From Bartonella sp. AU18XJBT (GTDB lineage Bacteria > Pseudomonadota > Alphaproteobacteria > Rhizobiales > Rhizobiaceae): a stretch of 64,000 bases of DNA. The stretch spans positions 65,560 to 129,559 of the forward strand of contig NZ_JAQITE010000002.1 of the NCBI RefSeq assembly GCF_028618595.1. Reading direction: 5' to 3'. The notes below the pieces were generated by a model. It worked only from the letters and a program-made list of their open reading frames with translations, did not search any database and was not told the origin of the DNA. Below, piece after piece: positions 2,463-64,000 of the stretch. The translations under genes were made by a program, and so were the position numbers. How positions within the stretch are numbered: position 1 is the stretch's first letter; each line of letters begins with the position of its first letter.

Positions 2463-3452
2463 TTAACTTATAGTCCAGTCATTCCAGTTCGCACGGATTT
2501 GTGCTAATGAGTGCCCTTGCGCTAAAAAAGCCCATAAAAGTAGACGCGCTTTTACGGCTGATAAATAACCAGACATGAGAGCACCAGAAGCAATCATATC
2601 GATTTCTGAGCCTTTATAGCCATAAGTTATACGAGTTGTTGAGCCATTACAACAACGACTAGCAATAATGATTGGTATTTTTTGTGCATATTGTTGTACA
2701 AGGTCTGCTTCTTGAAAACTACAGTGTCCTGCACCAAAACCAGCAATAACAACACCAGCATAATACCCACTTTCGAGGCATAGTTTCATTAATTGTGCAC
2801 CAGATGATAAAGAGGAATAGAGGAGTGCAATTTGATGATCGTGGTTTTGGGGAAGATCAAACGTTGTCGGAAAAAGTTTTTGATCATTGAAATAAATAAG
2901 TTTTCCCTCTAAAATAGTTCCTAAAATACCTGCAAGACCTGATTGAAATGTTTCGACTTTGACGGTATGGCTTTTATAGAGCCAATAAGGTGAATGAATT
3001 GCATCATTTATGACAACGAGAACGCCCCTGTTACGACTTTGTGTGGCTGCTGCGACACGAGTGGCTGCTAAAATGTTAGCGGGGCCGTCTGCGCCTGCTT
3101 CATGAGGCATGCGCATAGCGCCGGTTATGATGAGTGGTTCAGCTTCCTTCCAATAAAGAGAAAGAAAAAAAGCTGTTTCTTCCAGAGTATCAGTCCCTTG
3201 TGTTAAAACAATACCTTCTGCACCAGCATTTATTTGTTGTTTTGCCCACTCGATTATTTCAAAAAGAATTTGAAACGATAAAGATCCACTTGGTATTTGC
3301 ATTAATGTCTGTGCATGAATATCAGCAACGTTATTTAAATCAGGAACACTTTTTATGAGGTTATCTGAAGTTAAAGTCGGTTGCATGTGACCAAAACGAT
3401 CAGCAGTCATTGCAATTGTTCCACCTAAGGTTCCTATGGCTATTTTTTTCAT
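2463..3452 (-). CDS. L-asparaginase (type I/II family)
   Basis: Hydrolyses asparagine to aspartate and ammonia. The 329-residue protein has both family signatures: GTLGGTIAM near the N-terminus (nucleophile Thr12) and TQGTDTLEE at residues 84-92, which holds the second catalytic Thr-Asp pair. No signal peptide is visible; the N-terminus MKKIAIGTLGG leads straight into the first strand, so the enzyme is probably cytosolic. The ATG at 3450-3452 is preceded by AGAGGA. It is divergent from hslV, with a 220-bp shared intergenic region. Confidence 0.93.
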   Translation of the reverse strand: MKKIAIGTLGGTIAMTADRFGHMQPTLTSDNLIKSVPDLNNVADIHAQTLMQIPSGSLSFQILFEIIEWAKQQINAGAEGIVLTQGTDTLEETAFFLSLYWKEAEPLIITGAMRMPHEAGADGPANILAATRVAAATQSRNRGVLVVINDAIHSPYWLYKSHTVKVETFQSGLAGILGTILEGKLIYFNDQKLFPTTFDLPQNHDHQIALLYSSLSSGAQLMKLCLESGYYAGVVIAGFGAGHCSFQEADLVQQYAQKIPIIIASRCCNGSTTRITYGYKGSEIDMIASGALMSGYLSAVKARLLLWAFLAQGHSLAQIRANWNDWTIS

Positions 3453-3509
3453 AATTTTCCTCTAAAAGGCACAAACTGTTTATATAAAGCTATTTAGCAG
3501 TAATTTACA

Positions 3510-3538
3510 TTGACAACAATGATATCATTTTTCCATTT
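3510..3538 (+). promoter_or_regulatory. Candidate hslVU promoter
   Basis: A perfect TTGACA at 3510-3515 is followed 17 bp later by CCATTT at 3533-3538. A CCAT-type -10 resembles the heat-shock (RpoH) promoters of alphaproteobacteria, which would fit hslVU, but the -35 is equally that of a housekeeping promoter. It would leave a leader of about 130 nt before the hslV ATG. This is pattern matching only. Confidence 0.3.
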
Positions 3539-3672
3539 TCAACAAATTGAGTTATGCTGAATCATTGTGTTTTGTTGTATATGTTCTTAAATAGGACAAT
3601 AGTAATTGAGTTTTACATTGTATGAAAAGAAATCAATATTAAAAAGTAAAGTTAATATTAAGGAGTTCCCTT

Positions 3673-4254
3673 ATGACAGAACATAAGCCAGACATAATGT
3701 ATGGTACAACAATTATTACGGTACGAAAAGGTGGCAAAGTCGTGATGGCCGGTGATGGTCAGGTCTCTCTTGGACAGACAATTATGAAAGGCAATGCACG
3801 TAAAGTGCGTCGTCTTGGAAAGAACGGAGTGGTTATTGCTGGTTTTGCAGGTGCTACGGCAGATGCTTTCACATTACTGGAAAGATTGGAAACAAAGCTT
3901 GAGCAGTATCCTGATCAGCTTATGCGTGCATGTGTCGAACTTGCAAAAGATTGGCGAACAGATCGCTATTTGCGTCGTCTCGAAGCAATGATGCTCGTGG
4001 CTGATAAGAAAGTAACTTTGGCTCTAACAGGGCTTGGTGATGTTTTAGAACCAGAAGATGGGGTTATGGCAATTGGCTCTGGAGGAAATTTTGCTCTTTC
4101 AGCAGCGCGTTCACTTATGGATTTGGATTTAGATGCAGAAACTATTGCTCGTAAAGCTATGGCTATTGCCGCTAAAATTTGTGTTTACACCAATGATCAT
4201 TTTACGATTGAAACATTGGATGCAGAATTATCTTCTTTAGAGAAAGCTATTTAA
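3673..4254 (+). CDS. hslV: ATP-dependent protease HslV, peptidase subunit
   Basis: Proteolytic subunit of the HslUV (ClpYQ) machine, a proteasome-like threonine peptidase. The 193-residue product begins with an 11-residue propeptide ending in Tyr-Gly, followed by [13 protein letters not shown]. Thr12 is the expected N-terminal nucleophile after cleavage. The motif [20 protein letters not shown] is typical of the family. The start has an AAGGAG ribosome site 8 nt upstream. The TAA stop abuts the ATG of hslU, so the two are co-transcribed and probably coupled. Heat-shock control is usual in the family. Confidence 0.97.
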
Positions 4255-56446: not shown

Positions 56447-57280
56447 ATGAATATGAAATGGTTAATAACAGCTTCTGCTTTCGCTTTTGTTTCAGCTTCA
56501 GCAGCACAAGCAGCAGATGTTATTGTTCCCCCTAGTCCAACACCTGTTGCTCCCGTTATTGTTGCTCCAACTTTTTCTTGGACAGGTTTTTATGTTGGGG
56601 GCCAGATTGGTGGTTTTTCGGGTAAAACGAAAATGGATATCCTCAGTAACGGAAAAAAGATTCCAGCGCCTGATGATCTTTTGCCTAAACTATCTGGTTT
56701 CATGGGTGGTCTTTACGCAGGTTCCAACATTGATCTCGGTAATGGCCTTATTTTAGGTGTTGATACAGATTTCATGTGGTCTAATAAAGATGACACGAAA
56801 ACAGGAAACACATATGTTATTGCTCCAAATCACATCAATTATATTAAGAAGATATTAACAGAATCTGGAATTAATATTGGTAAAGATGCGCTTGAAGCTG
56901 GTGCTAAACGAACCCACAGTTTCACTTTTAAAGAAAAGTGGGCTGGTGCGACACGTGTACGTATTGGTTTTGCAGCTGAACGCATTATGCCTTATGTCGC
57001 TGGTGGTATCGCTTATACACAGCTTCAAGATAGTGCATCGATTTCAATAACAGGGAAAGATTCAGATAAAGTAATAGCTTCTGGTACCTTGTCTGATGAA
57101 ACAAAGACCCTTGTTGGTTACACCCTTGGTGCTGGTGTTGATTTAGCAATGACCAATAACGTTATTGTCCGTGCGGAATATCGTTACTCTGATTTTGGAA
57201 AAAAGAAATTCTCAAATGATAAATATGAGACTTCTTACAAAACCAATGACTTCCGAGTTGGTGTTGCTTACAAATTTTAA
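56447..57280 (+). CDS. hbp: Hemin-binding outer-membrane protein, Hbp/Pap31 family
   Basis: Outer-membrane beta-barrel of the Omp25/Omp31-like group; Bartonella Hbp proteins bind haem at the cell surface. 277 residues: signal peptide about 1-22 (ending SAAQA), a proline-rich linker, the family FSWTGFYVGGQIGG at the first strand, LGVDTDFMW, ATRVRIGFAAERIMPYVAGG, VIVRAEYRYSDFGKKKF and a C-terminal GVAYKF whose last Phe is the BAM signal. GAGAG lies before the ATG. A hairpin terminator follows. First of four intact paralogues. Confidence 0.93.
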   Translation: MNMKWLITASAFAFVSASAAQAADVIVPPSPTPVAPVIVAPTFSWTGFYVGGQIGGFSGKTKMDILSNGKKIPAPDDLLPKLSGFMGGLYAGSNIDLGNGLILGVDTDFMWSNKDDTKTGNTYVIAPNHINYIKKILTESGINIGKDALEAGAKRTHSFTFKEKWAGATRVRIGFAAERIMPYVAGGIAYTQLQDSASISITGKDSDKVIASGTLSDETKTLVGYTLGAGVDLAMTNNVIVRAEYRYSDFGKKKFSNDKYETSYKTNDFRVGVAYKF

Positions 57281-58773: not shown

Positions 58774-59609
58774 ATGAATACAAAATCTTTAGTCACAACT
58801 TCTATTATCGCTATGATAGCAGCTTCTGCGGCACAAGCTGCTGATATTATCGTTCTTCGTGAAAAAGCCCCAGCAGTTATCACAGCCCTTTCGTTTTCTT
58901 GGATAGATTTTTATCTTGGTAGTCAAGTTAGCAACTTTTTAAGTCAAAGTTGATGTATTTGATTTAGAAGCAAAAGAAAAAACTTCATAAAGATGGACTA
59001 CCTAAGCCTTCAGGTTTCATAGGTGGTATTTATTTAGGTTCCAACGTAGATCTTAGAAATGTCCTCATTCTAGATGTTAAAACCGATGTAGTCTGGATAG
59101 ACCAAGGAGAGACGAAGACGGTCTCAAAGATTCTTACGATTGATAAATTTGATGATTTTAATGATGAATTTGAAGATGCTGGTGTTACATTGGATGAAAA
59201 TGAAAAGTTTCAAAAGGGTAACACAGCAGTGTGTCGCATTGGTTTAAAAGGAAAAAGGTCTGGTGAAACACGGGTTCGTGTAGGCTTTTTCGTCGCTGAT
59301 CGTATTATGCCTTATGTTGCCGGTAGTATTGCTTATGCGTAAATACAGGGTGTTGGTAAAATTTCAGGAACAAAAAAATCGGCAAATGATAAACCAAGTA
59401 AAGCAGTTTCTGCTACGGTATTTGATAAAACAACAGCGATGGTGGTTTTCACTCTTGGTGGTGGTATAGATTTTTCGATGACAAATCATATTCTGCTTCG
59501 TGCGGAATACCGTTATTTAGACTTTGGTAAGAAGGAATTAAAAAAGGGTTATCTTAAACTAGGCTACAAAAGCAATGACTTTCATAGAGGTGTCGCGTAC
59601 AAGGTTTAA
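58774..59609 (+). pseudogene. hbp: Frame-broken hbp paralogue
   Basis: It starts normally (ATG 58774, same ribosome site and leader as its neighbours) and reads 59 codons to a TGA at 58951-58953. Beyond it the family blocks continue in other frames: GGIYLGSNVDLRN, a VRIGL-like repeat of the ATRVRVGF block, RIMPYVAGSIAYA followed by a TAA, LLRAEYRYLDFGKKE and a terminal VAYKV before TAA 59607-59609. The first-strand motif reads FSWIDFY, not FSWTGFY, and the terminal Phe is lost. No terminator hairpin like its neighbours follows. It is closest to the copy at 59791. Confidence 0.88.
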
Positions 59610-61811: not shown

Positions 61812-61989
61812 AGATGAAACTTTGATGGCGCTTGGTTTTAAAAAAGGCAACATTTGATTTCACTGTTTGCACAGGCATTGATTTTGCAATAACAGATGAT
61901 AGTTTATTACATGCAGAATACGGTTATTCAGATTTCGGTAAAAAGAAATTTATAAAGAATATTATCATTAACAGTTATGCAAAAATTTA
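61812..61989 (+). pseudogene. hbp: 3' remnant of an hbp gene
   Basis: Only the end of an hbp is left. It opens with a GATGAAACT matching the DET block, then in a shifted frame reads GIDFAITDDSLLHAEYGYSD and FGKKKF, against VDFAMTDNVLLRAEYRYSDFGKKKF in intact copies. The terminal segment is lost or shifted. Lies between the family A copy and the last hbp. Confidence 0.75.
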
Positions 61990-62112: not shown

Positions 62113-62131
62113 TGTGTTATTTTTGCTACAG
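62113..62131 (+). promoter_or_regulatory. Conserved hbp upstream box, site 5
   Basis: TGTGTTATTTTTGCTACAG, 56 bp before the ATG at 62188. Confidence 0.72.
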
Positions 62132-62187: not shown

Positions 62188-63948
62188 ATGAATACAAAAC
62201 GTTTAATAACAGCGTCTATTTTTTCTTTAATTTCAGCGTCTACAGCGCTAGCTGCTGATGTTATGATTCCTCATCAGCCAGCATCATCGACTTCTTCTAC
62301 CATTGTTGCACCTACTTTTTCATGGACAGGTCTTTATTTAGGTGTCCAAGCTGGTGGTTTTTCGAGCAAAGCTGATATGGCTCTTGTTGGTCAAGAAAAG
62401 AGTTTTCCACTAGATAAAGAGTTCTCTCCTAAACTTTCAGGTTTTGTAGGTGGTTTTTATGCTGGTTCTAATATTGACCTCGGTGATAACTTTGTTTTTG
62501 GTGTCGATACGGATTTAATGATATCTGGTAAAAAACACACAAAGACCATTACCATAGGTGCGGCTGATAACACTACAGTAGAAAATGCAGTCGTAAGATC
62601 CCGCAGATCTGCAAACCCACAAACGCCTCCAGCAACACAAGCACAACAAATCGCTTCAGGAGGATCTGCTGTTGCAGGAACACCTACACCAGCAAAACCT
62701 GCGTCAGCAACACCTGTTAGTGCAGGAGCTACAGCAGTAGGGACTCCAGTAGCAGGATCCGTGTCAGGAAAATCTGTTACAACGCAATCCAGTCCAGCAC
62801 AACATAGATCAGTAAATACAGTTCAATCGTCACAAGCAGGAGCGGCACAATCAAATCAAGCAGCAACTGGAAAGTCTAACAATGTTAATGAAACAGCAGG
62901 AAAAACATTGACGGCGGAAGGAACATCAGGAGTTTCAACACCAGCATCAAAAACACCATCTGCATCGCCAGTAGCACAATCATCCCCCTCTAAAACAGTG
63001 CAAGCGGTATCATCCTCATTGGGAAGATCAGATACAGGAGGGGCAACGGTAGGTCAGGTAGGTAGATCACAGCCAGCTGCACCTAAACCGACATCCCATA
63101 CAACAGGAGCAGGAACATCAGTGCAGTCAGCATCGCGATCAGCTACTGTCTCAGTAGTGCCTGCACCAGTAAAACCTACAGTAACTGTACCAGCAAGCAC
63201 GCCAGTAGCAAAAGCGTCTACATCGGTACAATCATCATCACAACCATCAGCAGTAGAAAAAACAGTACCGAGTGCACCACTTGTACTCGCGAGATCAGGA
63301 TCATCCTCTGAATCAGCGACAGCTTCCAATGGAACAAGCGGAGCGCAACACGGAGGTCATCATGGCGTCCATGGTAGTGGAAGTACTAATCCGCATGGTG
63401 CATCTCATGCAGGTGGACATGGTTCTGGCGCTCATGCGCATGGTGCTAATCCACATGCTTCTCGTTCTCATGGTGCACAAAGTACACAAGCGGTGGATAA
63501 GAACGATTCCAGTGTATATGGTATAGAACAAATGAAAAAGATGGCTTCTGAACTTGGTCTTGAGCAAGAGGATGAAGTTGAAACTTTAAGTCATACTTTC
63601 AAACAAAATTGGGGTGGTGCTACACGGGTACGTATTGGTTTTGCTGCTGATCGCTTTATGCCTTATCTTGCTGGGGGTATTGCTTATGGGCAGTTCCAAG
63701 ACACTGTATCAATATCCGTTAAGGATGACGATGGAAGAGTCGTTTCTTCTAAGAACTTAGCTGATGAAACAAAAACCATGATTGGTTACACACTTGGTGG
63801 TGGCGTTGATTTCTCGCTTCTGGATAATGTGATTGTACGTGCAGAATATCGTTACTCTGATTTTGGTAAAAAGAAATTTGCAAAGGAAAAACTTGAAGTT
63901 AACTACAAAACCAATGATTTCCGTGTTGGTGTAGCTTATAAATTCTAA
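62188..63948 (+). CDS. hbp: Large Hbp-family outer-membrane protein with His-rich insertion
   Basis: 586 residues from ATG 62188, with GGAGAG upstream; about twice the length of its paralogues. Signal peptide about 1-22 (ending STALA). The barrel starts with FSWTGLYLGVQAGG, NFVFGVDTDLMI. Residues about 141-430 are an insertion: first Ser/Ala/Thr/Pro/Val/Gln-rich and poor in acidic residues, then Gly/His-rich with 11 His between residues 388 and 428. The barrel resumes with ATRVRIGFAADRFMPYLAGG, VIVRAEYRYSDFGKKKF and GVAYKF. By alignment the insertion sits in one loop, most likely extracellular. Binding of haem, zinc or copper by the histidines is an inference. Confidence 0.92.
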   Translation: MNTKRLITASIFSLISASTALAADVMIPHQPASSTSSTIVAPTFSWTGLYLGVQAGGFSSKADMALVGQEKSFPLDKEFSPKLSGFVGGFYAGSNIDLGDNFVFGVDTDLMISGKKHTKTITIGAADNTTVENAVVRSRRSANPQTPPATQAQQIASGGSAVAGTPTPAKPASATPVSAGATAVGTPVAGSVSGKSVTTQSSPAQHRSVNTVQSSQAGAAQSNQAATGKSNNVNETAGKTLTAEGTSGVSTPASKTPSASPVAQSSPSKTVQAVSSSLGRSDTGGATVGQVGRSQPAAPKPTSHTTGAGTSVQSASRSATVSVVPAPVKPTVTVPASTPVAKASTSVQSSSQPSAVEKTVPSAPLVLARSGSSSESATASNGTSGAQHGGHHGVHGSGSTNPHGASHAGGHGSGAHAHGANPHASRSHGAQSTQAVDKNDSSVYGIEQMKKMASELGLEQEDEVETLSHTFKQNWGGATRVRIGFAADRFMPYLAGGIAYGQFQDTVSISVKDDDGRVVSSKNLADETKTMIGYTLGGGVDFSLLDNVIVRAEYRYSDFGKKKFAKEKLEVNYKTNDFRVGVAYKF

Positions 63949-63970: not shown

Positions 63971-64000
63971 AAAGGCTCCACTATTAGTGGAGCCTTTATT
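63971..64000 (+). terminator. Terminator after the large hbp
   Basis: AAAGGCTCCACT and AGTGGAGCCTTT form a perfect 12-bp stem with an ATT loop, at the right edge of the window. Confidence 0.88.

Follow-up and report, generated by a model that had tools for sequence, protein, structure and literature searches.

A hypervariable arm with a conserved histidine block in a predicted outer loop of the haem-binding protein HbpB of Bartonella

HbpB is one of the proteins of the HbpA-E/Pap31 family of Bartonella. In B. henselae the Hbps, HbpB included, bound haem on blots, and HbpB gave the largest haemoglobin halos in an E. coli HemR strain (PMC3483173). In B. quintana, hbpB and hbpC were raised under gut-like conditions (PMC3483173, PMC3799009), and the enlarged central part of HbpB is already in print (PMC3483173). 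The present work describes an hbpB gene found in 64,000 nucleotides of Bartonella sp. AU18XJBT (contig NZ_JAQITE010000002.1, positions 65,560 to 129,559; hereafter, the window), whose product carries a long insertion, the arm. HbpB was thus already known to carry the insertion, which is not peculiar to the window; it is ordinary for this protein and common to more than half of the Bartonella genomes examined. The modular make-up of the arm and its basic motif seem to be new: in the Bartonella Hbp literature searched, which was mostly non-subscription, no title or abstract beginning describes a histidine block, a codon shift or a basic motif.

On sequence comparison, the window gene is the hbpB of a Bartonella from the grahamii/tribocorum/elizabethae ('rodent') clade. 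Its product, numbered from MNTK, has 586 residues versus 271-296 in the three short intact paralogues of the window, which bears out the doubled length claimed in an earlier note on this DNA. The barrel blocks at both sides of the arm, also described there as intact, score above the curated Pfam cut-offs for Porin_2 and OMP_b-brl; the NCBIfam scan gave only matches far below the cut-offs. The protein shares with described HbpB the barrel clade, the enlarged central part and the upstream box of its neighbours. A quick maximum-likelihood tree was built with 157 barrels, a few of which repeat part of a gene already included. In this tree the 41 unbroken HbpB barrels, all of them with the arm, formed one clade (Shimodaira-Hasegawa-like approximate likelihood ratio test, SH-aLRT, 98), and the window barrel fell within a clade of 19 rows (SH-aLRT 99) that includes records named B. 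grahamii, B. tribocorum and B. elizabethae.

Regarding its distribution, a query with the histidine block and the foot that follows it matched 42 of 71 Bartonella genomes at E 0.001, the same 42 that carry HbpB (41 unbroken copies plus G036). The possibility that the orthologue would be ordinary in all relatives, raised in the earlier note together with the genome search, is thus not borne out, as the 41 copies have the arm and 40 of them at least five histidines at its foot. The 29 genomes without HbpB include G012, G029, G038 and G041, the source of nine long-loop Hbps of another clade, and 12 genomes, 2.2-2.9 Mb in size, that gave just four Hbp matches apiece. All 28 named Hbp loci located in genome contigs belong to Bartonella records. 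When the histidine block was searched for beyond the genus, the window's own genome was the only match among 199 family-level genomes (just three of them Bartonella, this one included), which is a weak test of other genera given a low-complexity query at E 0.001. In G036 (locus L100) the two halves of HbpB occupy different open frames, with an overlap of ~640 bases inside the arm; the gene may be broken or in an off state, or the sequence may contain an error. This copy was excluded from the counts over 41 rows given below, which were taken from alignment columns.

Comparison of these sequences shows that the arm is modular. It starts with a basic motif, continues with a fast-changing spacer and, close to strand 4 of the barrel, has a histidine block that is conserved, followed by a short conserved helix, the foot. 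For the 18 rows of the rodent clade, identity to the window protein averages 91% and 94% in the barrel halves, 86% in the hinge, 31% in the spacer, 71% in the histidine block and 86% in the foot helix. The length of the arm from basic motif to foot ranges from 62 to 368 residues (median 243). The window arm has 298 residues and is ~3 times longer than that of the probable B. henselae copy, L075 (G023), which carries 10 histidines in 103 residues. This assignment rests in part on the two printed hbpB primers, both of which match L075 exactly, and likewise L081; the L075 gene has 1,176 bases with the stop versus 1,182 for the printed product (PMC3483173).

The cluster of 11 histidines in 41 residues pointed out in the earlier note is exact, and none of 300 shuffles of the inserted stretch reached this number (mean 4.4). 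Over the 41 copies, histidine makes up 15% of the final 60 arm residues (368/2460) versus 0.5% of the remaining arm (33/6784). At least five histidines are found in these final 60 residues in all copies except L084 (G001), with two; the HbpB of G033 has seven. Copy by copy, the enrichment exceeds shuffles at p<0.05 in 38. The same loop contains 0-2 histidines in the short-loop paralogues (53 of 57 paralogues measured). Most histidines of the block are isolated and NP is the residue pair that most often precedes them (60 cases); spacings of 4, 5, 7, 8, 12 and 13 are over-represented, and directly adjacent pairs are fewer than in shuffled sequences (23 vs 51).

The spacer also differs from the barrel in codon use. 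Of the 5010 fourfold degenerate codons of the spacers, 65% end in A; the figures for the two barrel parts are 22% of 1916 codons and 18% of 2304. In the histidine block A falls to 31% and T is the most frequent base at 45% (14% in the spacer). Copy by copy, the A-ending fraction was 0.52-0.87 in the 39 of 41 spacers that could be measured, arms with fewer than eight fourfold codons being excluded, and no 100-codon stretch in the 46 other window frames of at least 120 codons was above 0.49. A-ending codons were considered as a mark of HbpB only and this was rejected, because nine long loops of Hbps without the histidine block are also raised (0.42-0.66 vs 0.21-0.29 elsewhere in the same proteins). 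The rise is smaller in five additional long Hbp loops (0.36-0.55). Hence, it is a property of long Hbp loops generally, strongest in HbpB. Frameshift tolerance was considered as the reason for this codon use and set aside: stops in the +1 and +2 frames are indeed rarer, at 4.6 and 2.3 per 100 codons in the arms versus 6.5 and 9.4 in the flanks, but this is a consequence of the codon use itself. Spacers with the same bias are otherwise unlike, since shared 15-mers stay below 5% in 21 of the 25 closest rodent-clade barrel pairs (maximum 15%), and this suggests that something maintains the bias. It could be kept either by repeated local duplication of A-ending units or by selection on the RNA.

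Divergence was compared in the 15 pairs formed by six genomes. Synonymous divergence (dS) is 0.43-0.98 and nonsynonymous divergence (dN) 0.40-0.78 in the arm, with dS of 0.05-0.31 in the barrel and 0.10-0.28 in hslU. In G025 and G066, the clearest case, barrel dS is 0.045 (hslU 0.187), yet only 66 of 192 aligned spacer residues are identical. The dN/dS ratio of the histidine block is 0.2-0.8 in 14 pairs, dS being zero in the other one, and that of the spacer is 0.68-1.14, with an unsure spacer alignment. This pattern is as compatible with exchanged barrels or replaced arms as with rapid point change. A second, silent arm copy was not found in the same genome up to E 10, in an assembly of 161 contigs where gaps are possible, so that cassette switching from a genomic store is unsupported. 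Internal 10-mer repeats exceed codon shuffles (p<=0.01) in 22 of the 35 arms of at least 200 bases.

As for the position of the arm, a structure model of the window HbpB was built from 84 sequences. It predicts a barrel of eight strands arranged as in OmpA/OmpW, the outer loops being long and the turns short, and the arm would sit between strands 3 and 4, that is, in the outward loop L2. The prediction therefore supports the display of the arm at the cell surface expected in the earlier note. No solved structure related to the window HbpB by sequence was found at E 0.01. The second outer loop of eight-stranded barrels of the OmpA, OmpW and NspA type is not known to bear such an arm. The Opa proteins of Neisseria have several variable loops, versus one arm in HbpB, and are not known to have a histidine block.

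Considering these data together, we hold with moderate confidence that the histidine block acts as a surface patch concentrating haem or metal on a hypervariable tether, the fold and the membrane side being taken from the model. A haem or metal role for these histidines is putative, and it is the likeliest reading. In it, an eight-stranded outer-membrane barrel would bear a long disordered arm in its second outer loop, and the block would be a flexible patch with multiple sites that loosely binds haem at the cell surface, and possibly also zinc, copper or nickel. The patch would concentrate haem for a dedicated receptor (HutA in Bartonella) and, in the arthropod gut, would keep any excess at a distance. 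The spacer could be a bristle whose sequence matters little, hence free to drift and to be replaced, and the bacterium would benefit from the shifting antibody targets. Histidine-rich glycoprotein and Plasmodium HRP2 are soluble proteins, denser in histidine than the HbpB block. Without any claim of kinship, they resemble it in having flexible histidine-rich stretches that bind haem, and metals too in the first of them (PMC7725123).

Several observations weigh against this reading. It was claimed earlier that B. quintana HbpB does not bind haem, and HbpB was not detected in B. henselae by western blot (PMC3483173). In a temperature study, hbpA and hbpC were raised at 28 C, and hbpB is not named in the excerpts of that paper (PMC3595295). 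The block is not needed for haem binding, because HbpA, HbpC and HbpD bind haem without it. In L084, with two histidines, and in L042 and L043, with five each, the number is not above shuffles. Moreover, dS in the histidine block reaches 0.63, and in the G025/G066 pair it is 0.59 (dN 0.17) versus 0.045 in the barrel; given this high dS, the block must have been turned over along with the spacer, keeping its character.

A less probable explanation, although a possible one, is that the arm is mainly an antigenic shield, hiding the barrel and drawing antibodies away, and that the histidines are a by-product of low-complexity sequence rich in glycine, alanine and histidine. High arm dS and dN in all 15 pairs alongside low barrel dS, the near-identical barrels with unlike arms in G025 and G066, and the presence of a fragment with hemin-binding-protein genes (hbp unspecified) among the high-SNP (single-nucleotide polymorphism) fragments of B. 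henselae Houston-1 (PMC3483213) would agree with it. Nevertheless, the histidine block keeps a fixed place in 40 of 41 copies while the spacer is not kept, and its preference for T-ending fourfold codons indicates that it is not merely more low-complexity sequence. In addition, as dS is high along with dN, the divergence is indicative of turnover or poor alignment and not just of amino-acid selection. The capture arm and the variable shield, offered in the earlier note as alternatives, concern different parts of the protein: the shield-like features are found in the hypervariable low-complexity spacer, next to a conserved histidine block whose role in capture is putative.

It seems distinctly unlikely that the surface ligand of the block is zinc, copper or nickel and not haem. 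Some TonB-dependent metal receptors have histidine-rich outer loops that bind metals, and a sequence rich in histidine and glycine, with mostly isolated histidines at the raised spacings mentioned above, suits metals as well as haem; on the other side, adjacent histidine pairs are below shuffles, and the printed function and regulation of the Hbps concern haem (PMC3483173, PMC3799009). Finally, a neutral expansion, in which tandem duplication and slippage enlarge a tolerant loop whose length and histidine content lack function, could account for the arms with repeat excess, the spread of lengths and a spacer dN/dS near 1, but it is very improbable and already disfavoured for the histidine block and the basic motif, as the histidine position is fixed, the motif is conserved, all measurable spacers have A-ending codons and the window's own arm shows neither tandem repeats nor an excess of 10-mer repeats (codon shuffles, p 0.64).

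The basic motif deserves separate attention. RSRRS is found exactly at the start of the arm in 29 of the 41 HbpB copies and R-x-R-R-[ST] in 32. The wider pattern R-x-[KR]-R is present in loop L2 of 33 copies (shuffled mean 1.4, largest 5). Among 13 other Hbps whose loops have at least 80 residues it is found in 10 (shuffled mean 1.8, largest 6), versus 3 of 101 short-loop Hbps. Over 48 sites in long loops, the next residue is S in 40, A in four, T in three and Q in one. The 46 other window frames (15,479 residues) hold seven R-x-[KR]-R sites, none followed by S, A or T. The count excluded 11 of 178 Hbp frames, before removal of repeats, whose loop ends were not located; two of them are long loops (gaps of 102 and 82 residues) without R-x-[KR]-R and were scored as misses. 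In a follow-up with eight further Hbp genes, picked by position and frame length, the pattern appeared in four of five long loops, each time with S next (chance by shuffle 0.05-0.08 apiece), and in none of three short ones, so that, HbpB aside, 14 of 20 long loops carry it. The long-loop Hbps of other Bartonella lineages L089-L096, L128, L143, L145, L146, L148 and L149 have R-x-[KR]-R and no HbpB-like histidine cluster. The nine long-loop Hbps of G012, G029, G038 and G041 form a separate clade (SH-aLRT 100) whose branching relative to HbpB the tree leaves open, and a single origin of long loops with the motif would be compatible with this open backbone.

R-x-[KR]-R is the consensus of furin and the proprotein convertases, and in the window protein it lies in a disordered place of loop L2. 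This furin-type site is present in long Hbp loops of separate barrel clades, loops that are unalignable around it. It could be that the HbpB arm is made to be cut, which we consider rather doubtful. If so, a dibasic protease of the host or vector (or a bacterial one) would cleave near the first end of the arm, leaving a bristle anchored by the histidine foot alone, and the cut would switch on haem capture or shed an antibody-bound arm in the right compartment. Alternatively, the motif could serve as a patch that binds heparin or haem propionates. Two points speak against general processing: 8 of the 41 HbpB copies, the probable B. henselae one (RSGRS) included, lack the motif, and related copies are not independent cases.

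The features of the gene are collected in Table 1. The upstream box ATTTTTGCTACAG, reported in the earlier note as shared, precedes the four intact hbp genes of the window, one copy with one mismatch; at up to one mismatch the window holds five matches, four of them ahead of hbp genes, with 0.27 expected. An H-box bound by Irr has been described upstream of hbp genes (PMC3799009), and ATTTTTGCTACAG is probably this box. Box and hbp neighbourhood are common to the window HbpB and the Hbp family.

Table 1. Features of the window hbpB gene and its product (window positions).
Feature	Position	Strand	Basis
Upstream box ATTTTTGCTACAG	62119..62131	+	common to the 3 other intact hbp genes
hbpB orthologue, 586 residues plus stop	62188..63948	+	single open frame; sequence and tree
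Signal peptide, residues 1-23	62188..62256	+	sequence; low-confidence helix 3-16 in model; cleavage place inferred
Predicted barrel strands 1-3, residues 48-123	62329..62556	+	model
Basic motif RSRRS, residues 137-141, R-x-[KR]-R-[STA], arm start	62596..62610	+	sequence comparison
Hypervariable S/A/T/P-rich spacer, A-ending codons, residues 142-380	62611..63327	+	sequence comparison
Histidine block, 11 His in residues 388-428	63349..63471	+	sequence and shuffles
Short helix, residues 446-455, conserved foot of loop L2	63523..63552	+	comparison and model
Predicted barrel strands 4-8, residues 464-585	63577..63942	+	model
Terminator-like hairpin	63971..63997	+	T-run continues beyond window end, visible in L001 only

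A terminator scan confined to the window found none; the hairpin is present, in accordance with the terminator mentioned in the earlier note, and at its 3' side lies a frame that, judged by eye, resembles isoleucyl-tRNA synthetase. The three shorter intact hbp genes are located 5' of hbpB, at 56447, 57615 and 59791. The 'four intact Hbp paralogues' of that note are correct for the window and not for the genome, which carries at least three additional Hbp genes on other contigs. Two hbp remnants lie between the intact copies, one with internal stops (58774-59603) and one short fragment (61844-61966). Other unusual Hbps were also observed. L097 (4677-5718) encodes a long loop of degenerate Y-P-P-E-A/T and Y-F-P-E-A/T repeats without the basic motif; L099 (reverse strand, 3299-4001) has a loop with tandem GKEP repeats in a gene truncated at the locus end; and, for several hbpA-like matches in G021, G024, G065 and others, the genome search reported open frames of ~670-720 codons, versus 289 in the frame derived here for the grahamii copy.

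HbpB helps a blood-dwelling, haem-dependent bacterium to handle haem. With a conserved histidine foot, a freely changing spacer and a conserved basic motif, the vague 'larger central part' of this protein becomes three pieces that can be tested separately, and they offer a concrete object behind the conflicting reports on its haem binding. Cleavage of the motif by host or vector proteases, if it occurs, would make HbpB an uncommon example of a convertase-type site used in a bacterial surface loop.
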